A stretch of 64,000 nt of DNA from an uncultured Campylobacterales bacterium (GTDB lineage: Bacteria; Campylobacterota; Campylobacteria; Campylobacterales; Arcobacteraceae), in the NCBI GenBank assembly GCA_947503785.1, contig CANNFB010000002.1, forward strand, positions 62,001 to 126,000. The letters are read 5' to 3'. Of the stretch, positions 15,845 through 23,045 are shown piece by piece. Every line of letters starts with the position of its first letter. Position 1 is the first letter of the stretch. The position numbers and the translations under genes were made by a program. The notes under the pieces were generated by a model. It searched no databases, was not told the origin of the DNA, and saw only the letters and a list, made by a program, of their open reading frames with translations.

Positions 15845-18205
15845 TTACCTATTGCATATAGTAGAATATGGACAATAGGTACAAACTACTTTTTCTTCAC
15901 ATTTTTCAAAACTTATCTCTTTTTTTGATAACTCTTTAAGTTCAGAGAATTTTTGAGTTAATAACTCTAGCTTTTTATCTAGTGCAATTTCTTCTTCTAA
16001 TTTTGTATTATTTAAATCATAATAAAAGGCATTTACTTTATCAGTTTTGTATATCTCACTCATGGCAAGATAATAAAACTCTAATTGGAAATCATTTGAT
16101 TTTTCATAGTTTTTTAAAGAATCCACCTTTAAAGAAGACGACGTTTTATAATCAATCACTTCATAAGTATCATCATATAAATCAACTCTATCAATCACAC
16201 CTTTTATTTTTATATCATCAAAAGTAATATTAAAGTTTTTTTCGAGTGCTATAATCTTTCTATTTTCTAATCTTTCTTTATCATAAAGATAAAAATTATA
16301 AAGTTTCTTTTTCCAAATCTCTAAGTCAAGTGCTAAAAAAGGATTTGATGTTCTATACTCATAAAATAAATTTTCTATTACTTTATATGACAAATCATTT
16401 GTTTCATTTATATAATACTTTTCTAGTATAGAATGAACAATACTACCTAACTCAAAACTTTTTGGTTTTAGTGAAATTGTATGCTCTTTAATTTTTAAAA
16501 TATATTGAAAATAAAACTTTCTTTTACACTCTAAAAAATTCTTAAATGAAGTTGCTGACCACTCAAATTGAGTCAAGTCAATCTTCTCTATAATATCACC
16601 TTCATAATGAGAGATATTATGATTATTATATAAAATATGCTTATATGAGTTATCACTTCTATTTATATCTATTTTTTCTAAAAATAGCTCATTTGCAAAT
16701 CTTGAGATTTGATTTGTATCTGAATTTACATAAGAGATAAAAAGATTAGAAGATGAATCTATCAATCTTTTATAATAATATTTTTGCAAAGATTCTCTAT
16801 CATAAGAAGTAGGAAGATTAGCCATGCTTTTTATTTTTGTAGATAAAAACTTATCTTTTATAGATCTTTTTGGAATAAAGTTTTCATTAAAATCACAGAT
16901 AATAACAGTATCAAAACTAACAGCTCTAGTTTCTAATAATCCTAAGACTGTAATCTTCCCAGAATTAACATCATCAAGAGTTATTTTAGATATTTTTTGT
17001 AAAAATATTTTATATAAATCTTTTACTAAAATACTATTTTCAGCTGAAAACAGTAAAATATTTAGTTTATAGATTACTTCATCATATTTTTCAAGTATCT
17101 CAACATTGTCTTCATTTGATTTTATAAATGTACAAATAAGTTCAAAATTATCTTTTGTACTGATTTTATTCCAAATAGTTTTTATGTCTTTATCTATGAA
17201 GGTTTTATCGATTTTTAAATACTCCAAATTAGAAAGATTTTTAACTTCATCTTCATTTAGATACGAATTTACTGCATATGCAACTTGATATAACTTATAG
17301 TTTTTAATATTTCTTCCCATAGCATAATTAAAATACTTCTCATTATCAAATAACTGAAGCCAAGAGGCAAAACTCTCATCAGGTAATACCAATGCAATAG
17401 AAGATGGATTAACTCCATTTGCTATAGCTTTTGTGATACTTGATTTAATATATGCTATTTGATTTATTCTTGAATTAAAGCCTTTTATATCTAATGATAC
17501 AATTTTATTTTCAATTTCTTCTTTTTTTATTAGAGTTTTATTTGTAAGTGATATTTCGTACTTTTTGTTTTCTTCTATTTTCTCTTCTAGAAAGTCAAAC
17601 TTTTCTAATGATTTTTGATTATATTTATTTGAATAAAAACTAATATTCAAATTAACAAGGGAAGAAATATCTTTTATAATATCAAACTCAACTCTTGTAA
17701 AGTAACCTTCAAATACAAAATCTATACAATCAAATCTTTTTAAAAAACTTTCATTAACTTTATAATGCATAGACATATTTATTCTGTCAACACAAGAGTT
17801 TTCATCTAATATTTTTATATAATTAGCTCTAATTTCTTCTAAGATTGATAGATGTTCATTGAAGTATTCATAAGTATCTGCATTTCTAATATCATTTATT
17901 TCTACTTTTTCACTTGATAATTCAAGAAAAAAACGATAGATATAATCATTTTGTTTTAAAAATTTTGTAAAATTATCTGATATTCCAAGTTTTTTGATAT
18001 CTGTATTTTTGATAGATTCTTTTAAGTATAAAAATCTTTGCTCTTCATCGATAAACTTTTTATTTTCAAAAGATATCGATTTTTTTAAAAACTCATCAAT
18101 AGTTAGTATTGATGGGAGCAAAGTATTTTTATTTTTTTGTAAAGAAATATGAGCTCTTACAGCTCTTGATGTTGGAAAAACTAAAAGTTTTTGTTTAAAT
18201 TGCAT
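15845..18205 (-). CDS. addB: AddB-like recombination nuclease subunit (PD-(D/E)XK)
   Basis: Predicted AddB subunit of an AddAB (RecBCD-type) double-strand-break resection enzyme. The N-terminal two thirds resembles an inactive helicase fold: it begins LLVFPTSRAVRAHISL and no intact Walker A is seen. The C-terminal PD-(D/E)XK nuclease has GSIVHSILEKYY, then GVIDRVDLYDDTYEVIDYKTS with catalytic Asp and Lys. The last residues include CEEKVVCTYCPYSTIC, the cysteines of the AddB iron-sulfur clasp. At 786 aa it has the short form seen in Campylobacter. addA, adjacent in Campylobacter, is not next to it here. Overlaps the FixH-like gene by 11 bp. Confidence 0.8.
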   Translation of the reverse strand: MQFKQKLLVFPTSRAVRAHISLQKNKNTLLPSILTIDEFLKKSISFENKKFIDEEQRFLYLKESIKNTDIKKLGISDNFTKFLKQNDYIYRFFLELSSEKVEINDIRNADTYEYFNEHLSILEEIRANYIKILDENSCVDRINMSMHYKVNESFLKRFDCIDFVFEGYFTRVEFDIIKDISSLVNLNISFYSNKYNQKSLEKFDFLEEKIEENKKYEISLTNKTLIKKEEIENKIVSLDIKGFNSRINQIAYIKSSITKAIANGVNPSSIALVLPDESFASWLQLFDNEKYFNYAMGRNIKNYKLYQVAYAVNSYLNEDEVKNLSNLEYLKIDKTFIDKDIKTIWNKISTKDNFELICTFIKSNEDNVEILEKYDEVIYKLNILLFSAENSILVKDLYKIFLQKISKITLDDVNSGKITVLGLLETRAVSFDTVIICDFNENFIPKRSIKDKFLSTKIKSMANLPTSYDRESLQKYYYKRLIDSSSNLFISYVNSDTNQISRFANELFLEKIDINRSDNSYKHILYNNHNISHYEGDIIEKIDLTQFEWSATSFKNFLECKRKFYFQYILKIKEHTISLKPKSFELGSIVHSILEKYYINETNDLSYKVIENLFYEYRTSNPFLALDLEIWKKKLYNFYLYDKERLENRKIIALEKNFNITFDDIKIKGVIDRVDLYDDTYEVIDYKTSSSLKVDSLKNYEKSNDFQLEFYYLAMSEIYKTDKVNAFYYDLNNTKLEEEIALDKKLELLTQKFSELKELSKKEISFEKCEEKVVCTYCPYSTICNR

Positions 18206-18752
18206 TTGTCTTTATAAAAAGAGAACCTGTTATTCCATCTACTTCAAATGTTCCTGTAATATTCCAATTGTTTTTATCTGTTATTTCAAAAGTTGAAGTA
18301 TATTGTTTATCATTATTTTTAAAATTTTCATTACTTAGTAAAATATCAGATTTATTTGATATACTTTTTGTAATTTTTAGTGCAATATTAACACTCTTTT
18401 TTTCATTTGTAATTTTATCACGTACAACTAATAGTATTTTGTTTAAACCATATTTTAGTATATTTTTATGTTCAGACTTTTTTTCTAAAACTCGTTGAGA
18501 GTACTTAATATCTTCAGTAGTTAGACCGAAGTTTTTATCATTAACATCTAAACTAAAATTATACTTTTTTAAAAATACTTGATTTGAAATCATAATAGAA
18601 TTATAGTTTGCATCAACATCTTGATAACTTCTTAAAAAACTTTCATCTTCATTTACAGGTAGCTTAATTGCACTCATAACAGTCCAAATAATCATTCCTA
18701 ATGTGAATGAAAATATACTAATAAATAATAAAGGCCAATAATTTCTCTTCAT
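18195..18752 (-). CDS. FixH-like membrane protein of the cbb3 oxidase cluster
   Basis: A 185-aa protein with one N-terminal membrane helix (about 7-28) and a periplasmic beta-rich domain. The size, topology and NYWPLLFISIFSF-type start resemble FixH/CcoH-region proteins that help copper delivery or assembly of cbb3 oxidase. It sits downstream of ccoP and the TPM-like gene in one orientation, with no space between it and the latter. No metal-binding motif is evident. Role inferred from context and weak resemblance. Confidence 0.6.
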   Translation of the reverse strand: MKRNYWPLLFISIFSFTLGMIIWTVMSAIKLPVNEDESFLRSYQDVDANYNSIMISNQVFLKKYNFSLDVNDKNFGLTTEDIKYSQRVLEKKSEHKNILKYGLNKILLVVRDKITNEKKSVNIALKITKSISNKSDILLSNENFKNNDKQYTSTFEITDKNNWNITGTFEVDGITGSLFIKTNAI

Positions 18753-19388
18753 TTACTTTCTTCTCTTTTCTCTTAAAACTACAAAAGTATAAACAAGTAA
18801 ACCAATTACAACAAGAGTATACATCATCACTCTCCAAATTGTACTAGCTATTTTTCCTTGACTTCCAATACTTGTTTCTAATTCAATATTTTTTTCATCT
18901 GCAATTATATCTGCCATAGCAGCATATCCATTTAAACTTGCAGCACTTACTTTCGCATATAATGTATTTTTGTCTTTTGATGCTAACAAAGGAACTACAT
19001 ATCCATCTAAAATATCATCTTTATCAATAATCTTTTCTAAACCTTCACTTACTAATAAGTTTACATGTTGTTCATCAATAGACATAGTCATTAAGGCATA
19101 TGGCTTTTTTAAAGCTTCTAATACTTTTGTTTCATGATTTTTTAGATAGATAATCTTATCTTCACCTTTTACTTTATCGCCTAATCCATAAGTAGATTTA
19201 ACATAAAGATAAATATTTACACCTAATTTTTCTCTAGATTCTAAACCCATTTGAGTAATTTTTTCTTTTGCTCTTGGATCAATTAATCCGTCATCACTTA
19301 AGATAAACTCATTTGCTAATATATTTTGTGATAAAAAAAATAGGAGTGAAAAAATCACTCCCATTTTTAAATTTTTAATAGTCTTCAT
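18753..19388 (-). CDS. TPM-like domain membrane protein
   Basis: A 211-aa protein. An N-terminal signal peptide (about 6-25) precedes a periplasmic domain of about 150 residues, then a C-terminal membrane helix (about 185-205) and a basic tail. The segment LSDDGLIDPRAKEKITQMGLESREKLGVNIYLY (read in two parts: DPRAKEKITQM, EKLGVNIYLYV) resembles the TPM (YgcG-type) fold. Such domains occur in several membrane-repair or photosystem-assembly proteins. Here the location between ccoP and the FixH-like gene suggests a link to oxidase biogenesis. Confidence 0.55.
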   Translation of the reverse strand: MKTIKNLKMGVIFSLLFFLSQNILANEFILSDDGLIDPRAKEKITQMGLESREKLGVNIYLYVKSTYGLGDKVKGEDKIIYLKNHETKVLEALKKPYALMTMSIDEQHVNLLVSEGLEKIIDKDDILDGYVVPLLASKDKNTLYAKVSAASLNGYAAMADIIADEKNIELETSIGSQGKIASTIWRVMMYTLVVIGLLVYTFVVLREKRRK

Positions 19389-19389
19389 T

Positions 19390-19482
19390 TTAACCTATAA
19401 ATATTTTTGCGTCATTAAAAAAGCTAAAATATACAGTCATAACCGCAGATACTACTAGTAATAATCCTATAATTTTGTCCAT
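19390..19482 (-). CDS. Tiny (30-aa) single-span membrane protein in the cco operon
   Basis: Not a standard-length gene, but well supported. The ATG at 19482 is preceded by AAAAGGAGCTAAG, a near-perfect Shine-Dalgarno at good spacing. It encodes MDKIIGLLLVVSAVMTVYFS followed by FFNDAKIFIG and TAA. Residues 4-22 form one hydrophobic helix. It lies between the DUF4006 gene (11-bp gap) and the TPM-like gene (1-bp gap), all in one direction. Small single-helix subunits are typical partners of cbb3 oxidases (CcoQ, CcoH, CcoM types), so an oxidase subunit or assembly role is plausible but unproven. Confidence 0.7.
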   Translation of the reverse strand: MDKIIGLLLVVSAVMTVYFSFFNDAKIFIG

Positions 19483-19493
19483 CTTAGCTCCTT

Positions 19494-19757
19494 TTACTTA
19501 GCAAGAATATAATTTTTATTTTGTTCTTCTGGAGTTTTTTGTTTTCTATCTGAGAAAACACTTCCTGAAGTTAAACCATTAATATCTTGGTTAATTTTAT
19601 AAAAATTTGTTGCTTGATCTTGTTGTACTTTAATACCACTAATAGTTAATACAACTAGTATTGTTAATAACAATACAGTTGCTATTAACATACCAGTAAT
19701 ACCACTTAACTTAAAGATTCCTCTTTCGTTTTCGTTCATTTGTGTATTTCCAGACAT
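19494..19757 (-). CDS. DUF4006-family small membrane protein
   Basis: An 87-aa protein with one membrane helix (about 16-42) and a short hydrophilic C-terminal tail. It resembles the DUF4006 proteins found directly downstream of ccoP in Campylobacterota; its position (1-bp gap after ccoP) agrees. Probably a cbb3 oxidase accessory component. Function unknown. Confidence 0.7.
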   Translation of the reverse strand: MSGNTQMNENERGIFKLSGITGMLIATVLLLTILVVLTISGIKVQQDQATNFYKINQDINGLTSGSVFSDRKQKTPEEQNKNYILAK

Positions 19758-19758
19758 C

Positions 19759-20646
19759 TTACTCTCCTAAACTTCTTAAGTATGCAGCAAGAGCTTTTTG
19801 TTGTGTTTCATTTAGTCTTCCGTCAAAACTTGGCATCATACCAAGATTTCCTTTTTTACCATCTTTTAACACAGCAGAAACTAACGCATCATCATATTCT
19901 CTGATGTTTGGGGCAACATAAGGCATACCTTCACCATTTGCACCATGACATCCTGCACAAGTAGCATAAGCAGCAGGTTGTTCACCCTTAAATCCACCAG
20001 CAACATACTCAGCAATAATTTCAACATCTGGTCCAAAAGCCATACCACCTGGCATTCCACCTGGATATGCAGTTTTTAAGCTATTAGAACCGTTATTGAT
20101 CACATGAATAACTTGATCTTTTGCAATTCTTTTAGTTAAATCTTGCGCTTTACCTTCAATACCTTCAGCATCAACACCATGACAAGGTGAACACTGAACT
20201 AAGAAAGTAGACTGACCCATTGCTTCTAAAGTTTCAGTAGAAGGGTTGTCCCATTTCTTCTCAAACTTAGCATTGTAATCTAGTGCTTCTTCATTCCATT
20301 GACCAATTTGTGAAAAGCTATTAATTGGATAACCAATAGTCATATACCAAAACATCCAAATAATTGTTCCAATAAATGCTATAGCCCAACCTGTTGGAAC
20401 ATTATTTTGGTATTCACCAATTCCGTCCCAATTTTCATCTTTTAATTCACCACTAGCTGTATCATTTTTCATTTGATTAACATATTTAAGTGAAACGAAT
20501 ACTGTAATTACAAGAATTGCGATCGCACCTAACATTGTTAAACTATTTATATAATCGTCACCGATAAAAGCATCACCTGCTGCCAAGTAAGTTCCTGCTA
20601 TTAAAGCGATGACAAGAATAATTCCACCTATAACCATAGATTTCAT
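19759..20646 (-). CDS. ccoP: cbb3-type cytochrome c oxidase, diheme subunit III
   Basis: Membrane-anchored diheme cytochrome that passes electrons from soluble cytochrome c to CcoO/CcoN. Three hydrophobic segments (about 3-24, 35-55, 86-106) are followed by two c-heme domains: CSPCH at 152-156 and CAGCH at 230-234. Candidate Met ligands lie in GGMPGGMAFG and GMMPSFDG. 295 aa is normal. It is 1 bp after ccoQ. Confidence 0.95.
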   Translation of the reverse strand: MKSMVIGGIILVIALIAGTYLAAGDAFIGDDYINSLTMLGAIAILVITVFVSLKYVNQMKNDTASGELKDENWDGIGEYQNNVPTGWAIAFIGTIIWMFWYMTIGYPINSFSQIGQWNEEALDYNAKFEKKWDNPSTETLEAMGQSTFLVQCSPCHGVDAEGIEGKAQDLTKRIAKDQVIHVINNGSNSLKTAYPGGMPGGMAFGPDVEIIAEYVAGGFKGEQPAAYATCAGCHGANGEGMPYVAPNIREYDDALVSAVLKDGKKGNLGMMPSFDGRLNETQQKALAAYLRSLGE

Positions 20647-20647
20647 A

Positions 20648-20866
20648 CTATTTCTCCTTGTTATCTATATTATTTGTTCTTTCTTCAAGAGGAGAAGAGG
20701 ATGATGCATCATCATGAACTAGGTTTGAATACTTCTCAAAATCTGTTTCACCAGTTTTATCTCTTTTATATATAGAATAAGCATAAGAGTAAAATACAAC
20801 AAATACAAATAAAATTAAAAAGAACTTCGCATAACCTTGAATGTTCAATAATGTTTCATAATCCAT
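20648..20866 (-). CDS. ccoQ: cbb3 oxidase small subunit CcoQ
   Basis: A 72-aa protein with one membrane helix (about 12-30, AKFFLILFVFVVFYSYAYSI) and a Ser/acid-rich cytoplasmic tail. It lies between ccoO and ccoP, where CcoQ belongs. CcoQ stabilises the core complex in other bacteria. Confidence 0.85.
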   Translation of the reverse strand: MDYETLLNIQGYAKFFLILFVFVVFYSYAYSIYKRDKTGETDFEKYSNLVHDDASSSSPLEERTNNIDNKEK

Positions 20867-20877
20867 CTTTTAACCTC

Positions 20878-21561
20878 TTACTTTAAAGAATTTAAATATG
20901 CAATTAATGCAACTATTTCAGGAATCTGACCATTTGCAACAGCATCTTTTACAGCTTTGTTTTTCATATCAGCTGCAATAAGTTGCGCATCTGCTTTAGC
21001 TTTTGCTATAGCAGTTGTGTGATCACCTAACTCAACGTCAATTTTACCATCACCATCTAAATCTTGATCATATGGAGTAGCAAAAACAGTTTTAACTGTA
21101 TAAGCTTCAGCATATGCTGTATCTAAATCAGCAATATTCTCAAAGTGATGAGGATATGCTGGCATAACAGTTCCAGGTACAACAGATGCTGGATCCATCA
21201 TGTGATTTTCATGCCAGTCAGTAGTTCTATAATTACCAACTCTCATTAAATCTGGTCCAGTTCTTTTTGATCCCCATAAAAATGGTCTATCATAAGCGTA
21301 CTCACCAGATAATGAATACATACCATATCTATCAGTTTCTGATTTAAATGGTCTAATTAGTTGTGAATGACAAGCATTACAACTATCTTTAATATAAACT
21401 TGTCTACCAGCTAATTCTAAAACCGAATAAGGCTTAGTACCAACAGTAGGTCTACTTTGTTTTGCAAAATCTGGAATAATTTCAATTATTCCTGCGAATG
21501 CAACAAACACGAATACTAGAACCGCAAAGAAAAACGGTCTTTGTTCAAACCAATGAAACAT
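20878..21561 (-). CDS. ccoO: cbb3 oxidase monoheme subunit II
   Basis: Membrane-anchored monoheme cytochrome c that feeds the catalytic subunit. It has one N-terminal helix (about 9-30) and heme site CNACH at 61-65. The segment RTGPDLMRVG (100-109) and the VVPGTVMPAYP loop with the likely Met ligand (about 133) are typical. Unusual: residues 165-175 read DQDLDGDGKID, an EF-hand/dockerin-like calcium-binding loop, in an insert after TPY. Operon ccoN-O-Q-P with gaps of 14, 11 and 1 bp. Confidence 0.94.
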   Translation of the reverse strand: MFHWFEQRPFFFAVLVFVFVAFAGIIEIIPDFAKQSRPTVGTKPYSVLELAGRQVYIKDSCNACHSQLIRPFKSETDRYGMYSLSGEYAYDRPFLWGSKRTGPDLMRVGNYRTTDWHENHMMDPASVVPGTVMPAYPHHFENIADLDTAYAEAYTVKTVFATPYDQDLDGDGKIDVELGDHTTAIAKAKADAQLIAADMKNKAVKDAVANGQIPEIVALIAYLNSLK

Positions 21562-21575
21562 ATTTTCTCCTTTTC

Positions 21576-23045
21576 TTACGCAGCTACAGGTGTAGTGTTT
21601 GTAGGTTCTTTATCAAGTACTCTTCCACATTTAATAGTTTTATAAATATTATATGCGAACATAAAGAATCCAATAAGGTACAATAACCCACCAACTGCTC
21701 TAATTGTGTAATATGGTTGTAATACAGTTACTGTATCAATGAATGAATAAACTAAAGAACCGTATTCGTCATACGCTCTCCACATCATACCTTGAGTAAT
21801 ACCTGCAATCCACATAGAAGTAAAGTATAAAACGATACCTGTAGTTTGTAACCAGAATTGTGTATCCATTAATGATTTAGAGTAAAGTTCTCTCTTATAC
21901 ATTCTTGGAACCATATGGAATAATGCTGCCATTACCATAAATACAACCCATCCTAAAACACCATCATGAACGTGACCTGGAATCCAATCTGTAAAGTGCG
22001 CAATTGCATTTACTGATTTGATCGCTTGAATAGGACCTTCAATAGTTGATAACATATAGAATGTTGATGCTAATACCATAAACTTAATTAGTGTATTAGT
22101 TTGTAACTGTTGCCACTCACCTTTCATAGTTAAAAGCATATTAATAGCAGATCCCCATGATGGTAAAATTAATACAACTGACATTACAGAACCCATTGTT
22201 TGCATCCAGTCAGGAACAGTTGAATAAAGAAGGTGATGACCACCAGCCCATAAGTAAACAAACATTAATCCCCAGAAAGCTAAAATCGAAAGTTTATATG
22301 AATAAACATTTTGACCAGATTCTTTTGGAAGGAAATAATAAATCATTGCAATAATTGGAGTTGTGAAAACAAATGCAACCGCATTGTGTCCATACCACCA
22401 TTGTACTAATGCATCATTTGTACCTGCATACATAGAAACTGAATGCATCCATGAACCATAACCTGATACTAATGCAGTTGGAACTTCCATGTTATTAAAT
22501 AAATATAACATTGCAATTGCAATAAAAGTAGCAATGAAGTACCATAATGAAATATACAGAGTTCTCTCTCTTCTAATTCCTATTAAACCAAAAATAGAAA
22601 CTCCCCATAAAACCCACCATACAACAACTAAAATATCTAATGGCCATTCTAATTCAGCATATTCTTTAGATGTAGTATAACCCATAAATAGAGTTACTAC
22701 TGCTAAAAGAATAGTGATAAAATAAAGTGCAAAATGTAATTTTGCAATACCCATTAAAAATGGAGATTCTTTTAAAGAAACTTTTAATACTCTTTGCCCA
22801 ATGTAATACCATGAAGCAAAAACACCACTTAAAGTAAAACCAAATGCAACACCATTTGTGTGTAAAGGTCTTAATCTACTAAATGTACCATACTCCCCAG
22901 CTAAGTTATTTAACTCAGGAAACGCCAATTGAAACGCAAGTACAACACCGATCGTCATACCTATGATACCAAACAAAATTGTTGCAAATGTAAAGGCTTT
23001 TGCAACTGAGTAATCGTACTCAATTTGTGCACCGTTTTGCATCAA
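21576..23045 (-). CDS. ccoN: cbb3-type cytochrome c oxidase catalytic subunit I
   Basis: Heme-copper oxidase subunit of 489 aa with about 12 membrane helices; it reduces O2 with high affinity in the inner membrane. The low-spin heme His lies near RLRPLHTNGVAFGF, the CuB His in WWYGHNAVAFVFT, the further CuB His pair in GGHHLLYSTVPDW, and the high-spin heme His region in PGHVHDGVLGWV. The ribosome site AGGAGGAG precedes the ATG at close spacing. First gene of the cco cluster; a 459-bp AT-rich region lies upstream. Confidence 0.97.
   Translation of the reverse strand: MMQNGAQIEYDYSVAKAFTFATILFGIIGMTIGVVLAFQLAFPELNNLAGEYGTFSRLRPLHTNGVAFGFTLSGVFASWYYIGQRVLKVSLKESPFLMGIAKLHFALYFITILLAVVTLFMGYTTSKEYAELEWPLDILVVVWWVLWGVSIFGLIGIRRERTLYISLWYFIATFIAIAMLYLFNNMEVPTALVSGYGSWMHSVSMYAGTNDALVQWWYGHNAVAFVFTTPIIAMIYYFLPKESGQNVYSYKLSILAFWGLMFVYLWAGGHHLLYSTVPDWMQTMGSVMSVVLILPSWGSAINMLLTMKGEWQQLQTNTLIKFMVLASTFYMLSTIEGPIQAIKSVNAIAHFTDWIPGHVHDGVLGWVVFMVMAALFHMVPRMYKRELYSKSLMDTQFWLQTTGIVLYFTSMWIAGITQGMMWRAYDEYGSLVYSFIDTVTVLQPYYTIRAVGGLLYLIGFFMFAYNIYKTIKCGRVLDKEPTNTTPVAA

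Follow-up and report, generated by a model that had tools for sequence, protein, structure and literature searches.

A 30-residue single-helix protein of the cbb3 oxidase operon belongs to the known CcoY family and is conserved across the Campylobacterota

The cbb3 oxidase operon in our window (the whole stretch of 64,000 nucleotides analysed here, from an uncultured Campylobacterales bacterium) holds a 30-codon frame between the DUF4006 gene ccoX and a TPM-like gene, raising the question of whether so short a frame is a gene and, if so, what its product does for the oxidase. Read on the minus strand, the frame starts with ATG at 19482, ends with TAA at 19392-19390 and encodes the product MDKIIGLLLVVSAVMTVYFSFFNDAKIFIG (Table 1). 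The preliminary description had pointed to a strong Shine-Dalgarno sequence, one hydrophobic helix and tight spacing, and these features are borne out: AAAGGAG lies 5 bases (CTAAG) upstream of the ATG, AlphaFold2 (34-row alignment) predicts a helix at residues 2-22 (mean pLDDT 82.5, with 66 for the last ten residues), and the intergenic gaps from ccoP through the 185-residue gene are 1, 11, 1 and 0 bases, the frame lying 11 bases from the ccoX stop and 1 base from the ATG of the TPM-like gene. The 30-mer matches no model in Pfam or NCBIfam.

Table 1. Features of the cco operon and its surroundings in the window, with the basis of each assignment.
Feature	Position	Strand	Description and basis
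ccoN	21576..23045	minus	TIGR00780 match in own genome, E 2.6e-208; PDB cbb3 subunit N matches
ccoO	20878..21561	minus	Frame; 87-91% identity to ccoO of G337 and G373; name presumed from place
ccoQ	20648..20866	minus	FixQ, 5e-08; TIGR02736, 51 bits, below cut-off of 61.55
ccoP	19759..20646	minus	FixP_N, 1e-16
ccoX	19494..19757	minus	DUF4006, one helix; PF13179, E 7e-25, 87.2 bits (cut-off 22)
Gap ccoX-ccoY	19483..19493	minus	11 bases; holds the ribosome site, AAAGGAG starting within the ccoX stop region
ccoY	19390..19482 (stop included)	minus	30 residues, single-helix membrane protein; assigned as orthologue of Cj1485
ccoZ	18753..19388	minus	TPM-like, membrane-anchored, 211 residues; place, TPM in relatives, fold match
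ccoH	18195..18752	minus	FixH-like, 185 residues; named by place
AddB-like nuclease gene	15845..18205	minus	

Among the neighbours, the window's CcoQ and CcoP do not reach the thresholds that NCBIfam sets for TIGR02736 and TIGR00782, respectively, and automatic naming may therefore fail there. The window CcoH has no Pfam FixH match at E ≤ 1; of the proteins at the ccoH position in four relatives, two score above the Pfam FixH cut-off, one is weak (E 0.12) and one has no match, and the C. jejuni gene at this position, cj1483c, is called a CcoH homologue in the accessible text of PMC8267372. The description of the next gene as TPM-like holds for its relatives and its fold: Pfam gives no match to the window CcoZ itself at E ≤ 1, but TPM is matched by 10 of 17 CcoZ relatives (best Pfam E 0.001) and the predicted structure (pLDDT 79) resembles TPM domains, including the photosystem II assembly factor Psb32. 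At the end of the operon there is an 11-base overlap between ccoH and the gene for the AddB-like nuclease, which stand in this order in two other genomes as well (G337 and G373); because of this overlap a gene for oxidase assembly and one for DNA repair would appear to share a transcript.

A lone hydrophobic frame at such a place is weak evidence for a gene, since dinucleotide shuffling of the downstream stretches leaves one in 488 of 5050 cases (9.7%), counting frames of 25-60 aa that start 0-60 bases downstream with no ribosome site required; the real loci were scanned over a wider range (-25 to +60). It is conservation across loci that lifts ccoY above chance. A hydrophobic frame lies directly downstream of ccoX in 96 of 101 ccoX loci, a set that includes the window's own locus (L001) and near-identical species, and pooled pN/pS is 0.39 in frame compared with 0.83 and 1.24 when shifted by one and two bases (22 aligned 30-codon members, excluding L001, identical to the window, and pairs with fewer than three differences). 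ccoY is under purifying selection at the amino-acid level. Conservation of the amino acids in relatives was the comparison proposed in the preliminary description as able to refute it; the frame is conserved, and this, with its ATG and AAAGGAG, identifies a real gene for a 30-residue membrane protein. In the CcoY profile A1 there is almost no variation at the columns I5, L9, A13 and final G. Lysine and arginine are more numerous on the N-terminal than on the C-terminal side of the helix in 66 of 96 loci, equal in 30 and fewer in none, which under the positive-inside rule suggests a cytoplasmic N-terminus.

The gene, first described as hidden, is not undiscovered: its C. jejuni copy carries the locus tag Cj1485c, and a 2021 study deleted it and gave it the name CcoY. 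The accessible text of PMC8267372 describes Cj1485 as a protein of 33 residues with one helix, in the gene order ccoP, cj1486c (DUF4006, ccoX), cj1485c (ccoY), cj1484c (TPM/DUF5130, ccoZ), cj1483c (ccoH). Loss of ccoX or ccoH left no cbb3 activity, and loss of ccoY or ccoZ reduced it with no remedy by copper, in mutants made with terminator-less cassettes to limit polar effects and assayed with ascorbate/TMPD as electron donor (PMC8267372). Nine of 11 primer segments from that paper match our locus L023 (genome G102) exactly and the other two with 1 and 2 mismatches; L023 is a C. jejuni-type locus with a 33-residue frame downstream of DUF4006, and its genome matches A1 at E 1.9e-13. The frame of L021, which differs from that of L023 by two residues, shares 38% identity with the window CcoY, and both belong to one profile that matches 275 of the 397 genomes (E ≤ 1e-3). 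Judged by its position in the cco operon, with ccoX before it and ccoZ after it, its size (30 residues and one helix, against about 33 residues) and its sequence, the window frame is the orthologue of Cj1485/CcoY. The two proteins share one central helix and differ in length and in their tails, DAKIFIG in the window and VNHLHIG in C. jejuni; the effect of ccoY loss on cbb3 activity is documented for C. jejuni only. Our literature search on CcoY/Cj1485c found nothing pertinent beyond PMC8267372 and, for transcript level, PMC7099621, in whose accessible part cj1485c is a 'putative periplasmic protein' down 1.68-fold on treatment with a flagellum-binding protein; no paper was found on HP0148. What stands of the preliminary description is thus a real, tiny, conserved one-helix protein linked to the cbb3 oxidase, and what falls is its novelty: the CcoY family is already known, and the window gene is a further member.

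ccoY is linked to, and co-occurs with, the cbb3 genes. Frames are present in 380 of 397 genomes of the phylum, with ccoN in 381 and DUF4006 in 380. This count combines 275 genomes matched by A1 at E ≤ 1e-3 (316 match at E ≤ 1, 41 of them above 1e-3), 100 genomes of family f2 matched by a second profile, A2, and five in which the frame was identified by inspection (G047, G249, G232, G285 and G365). Of the 17 genomes without ccoY, 15 are also without ccoN, and the remaining two, G230 and G388, are fragmented drafts with ccoN in which neither ccoX nor ccoY was found; conversely, the draft G182 has ccoX and ccoY and no ccoN match. The position of A1 matches was read for 85 ccoX-ccoY pairs and the inspected loci, and in 84 of these pairs ccoY lies on the same strand, 28-54 bases past the ccoX match. 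The exception, G393, was rejected as a case of non-neighbours, ccoG and a contig break separating X from Y. A second ccoX in G205 was discarded as a sub-threshold match within a 305 aa frame.

Family f2, probably the Helicobacteraceae, has a diverged form that A1 misses entirely at E ≤ 1e-3 (100 of the 397 genomes). Profile A2, built from 19 f2 frames at the ccoY place, matches every f2 genome (119 of 119, E ≤ 0.01), including the 100 beyond A1. The two profiles align (hhalign 92%, P 6e-7) at 13% identity, a link that may come partly from shared hydrophobicity, and f2 orthology is therefore assigned mainly by place. The f2 proteins (L061-L079) carry an invariant Glu-Lys before the helix and a Pro after it, and their final Gly is not conserved.

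The CcoY profiles find no relative among solved structures: A1 has no match at E ≤ 10 among PDB sequences, including 5djq, a probable P. stutzeri cbb3 entry that may hold a CcoM chain, and matches of CcoY to BetP and Pr125Pol (E 1.3-5.3) were rejected as noise. The cbb3 oxidase of Pseudomonas stutzeri depends for its stability on CcoM, a single helix of about 36 residues (PMC8267372, accessible text); CcoY resembles CcoM in its single helix and in the stability role proposed below, but no sequence relation was found, and the window protein is probably not a CcoM. CcoQ/FixQ and CcoY are both small one-helix cbb3 proteins of one operon, but the window has a separate ccoQ, the 30-mer does not match FixQ (PF05545) in Pfam, and in G373 a second operon has Y with no Q match. 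The bd-type proteins CioY and CydX are, like CcoY, tiny helices encoded after oxidase genes; CioY, of 34 aa, binds CioA and has a conserved Trp, Pro and Tyr pattern (PMC11955535, accessible part). The CcoY pattern differs, and its gene lies in the cbb3 operon, not after bd/Cio genes.

Rearranged loci help to show which genes ccoY stays with. In the five of 101 ccoX loci with no frame next to ccoX, ccoG, an accessory gene of the oxidase, adjoins it instead, and in all three followed further ccoY comes directly after ccoG (in L103 identified by TIGR02745, 505 bits, cut-off 316.7). ccoG separates X from Y in L103, L104, L105, L111 and L112 and also in L125/L126 (G393), and in L106 X and Y adjoin with no ccoG between; the picture is drawn from six loci of two families, plus G393. 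The single-contig genomes G337 (L107/L113) and G373 (L109/L115) each contain a second cco operon, of order N-O-Q-P-X-Y and N-O-P-X-Y, respectively, followed in both by a nitrite/sulfite reductase gene. Neither ccoZ nor ccoH has a match in the 3.8 kb beyond these operons, and ccoZ is single-copy in each genome; having Y without Z or H beside it suggests that Y goes with the oxidase core and X. The second-operon Y copies, presumed functional, are 50-54% identical to the window Y. Within G337 or G373 the two ccoX copies encode the same protein while those of ccoY do not, a pattern that gene conversion ending before Y would leave.

We propose that CcoY is probably a small helix of the oxidase core that stabilises the cbb3 oxidase or helps assemble it. 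This is suggested by the lowered Cco activity of the C. jejuni deletion mutant (PMC8267372, accessible text), by the co-occurrence of ccoY with ccoN over the 397 genomes, by the second operons, which keep their own Y without Z, and by the retention of Y where ccoG separates it from X. CcoY would be co-translated with the oxidase genes from one tight operon and would lie in the inner membrane with its N-terminus inside and a short conserved tail in the periplasm. Its helix probably packs against the core of CcoN, CcoO and CcoP, perhaps together with CcoX; without it the oxidase would run at a lower rate, presumably for want of stabilisation. Against a core role, mass spectrometry of a high-mass band from C. 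jejuni found nine proteins (CcoN, O, P, H, Z, X and QcrA-C) without CcoY, and ccoY loss reduced activity and did not abolish it (PMC8267372, accessible text); Y is also more diverged than the adjoining X, P, O and N in the second operons, and a conservation stripe on the helix face did not reach significance (permutation p values of 0.08 and 0.07). CcoQ is likewise missing from the band, so the small size of CcoY may explain its absence. CcoY may be a stoichiometric subunit of the oxidase. The broader statement, that it is a core cbb3 subunit phylum-wide in the Campylobacterota, kept without CcoQ, CcoZ or CcoH beside it and strongly diverged in the Helicobacteraceae, we regard as evenly balanced.

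CcoY might instead act together with CcoZ to link the oxidase to the cytochrome bc complex, as a factor of a Qcr-Cco supercomplex and not a subunit proper. In the loci read, Y lies directly upstream of Z, even where ccoG splits X from Y, an arrangement that taken alone favours a Y-Z pairing. The CcoZ model also matches 8ovc_V, a chain from the III-IV supercomplex of M. smegmatis (E 9.1e-4, target TM 0.50), and more weakly 6hwh_O and 6adq_J, and its match to both TPM and 8ovc_V agrees with the published claim for Cj1484; the same paper suggests that CcoX, CcoY and CcoZ may belong to a supercomplex and finds the same type of partial defect on Y and Z loss (PMC8267372, accessible text). The second operons of G337 and G373, however, retain Y with no second Z. 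Electron supply from ascorbate/TMPD bypasses Qcr. The C. jejuni ccoY mutant was impaired even in this assay (PMC8267372, accessible text), and we consider the linking role unlikely, though well short of negligible.

It is improbable that ccoY serves chiefly as a leader that sets ccoZ translation by coupling, its peptide having little function. The single base between the ccoY stop and the ccoZ start in the window, the ATGA overlap in the C. jejuni type and the near-invariant last Gly codon, whose GGN could act as a ccoZ ribosome site, are what such a coupler would exhibit. Yet selection acts on the amino acids, Y with an FVG end is kept where no ccoZ comes next, Y persists where the ccoZ start lies about 100 bases downstream (L054), and of the 75 loci that end in Gly, 42 use GGT as the last Gly codon and 25 use GGA, a usage that a ribosome site would not favour. 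That ccoY is a chance hydrophobic frame in AT-rich DNA, of the kind that shuffled stretches do contain, we reject as having next to no probability, given its recurrence with the same place and motif in nearly all genomes and the purifying selection upon it.

To the published account of CcoY, as far as its accessible text goes, our analysis makes modest additions: its range over the phylum, the diverged family form and the second operons. The amino-acid constraint seen in pN/pS is a further one. The second operons offer a natural experiment that separates CcoY from CcoZ and CcoH, and a near-constant companion of the oxidase with neither a Pfam or NCBIfam model nor a solved relative is a target for structure work and annotation. 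Members of this phylum, major gut and stomach bacteria among them, depend largely on the cbb3 oxidase to respire oxygen. If CcoY is indeed a core subunit, each cbb3 oxidase of these microaerophiles would have one chain beyond those in current models.
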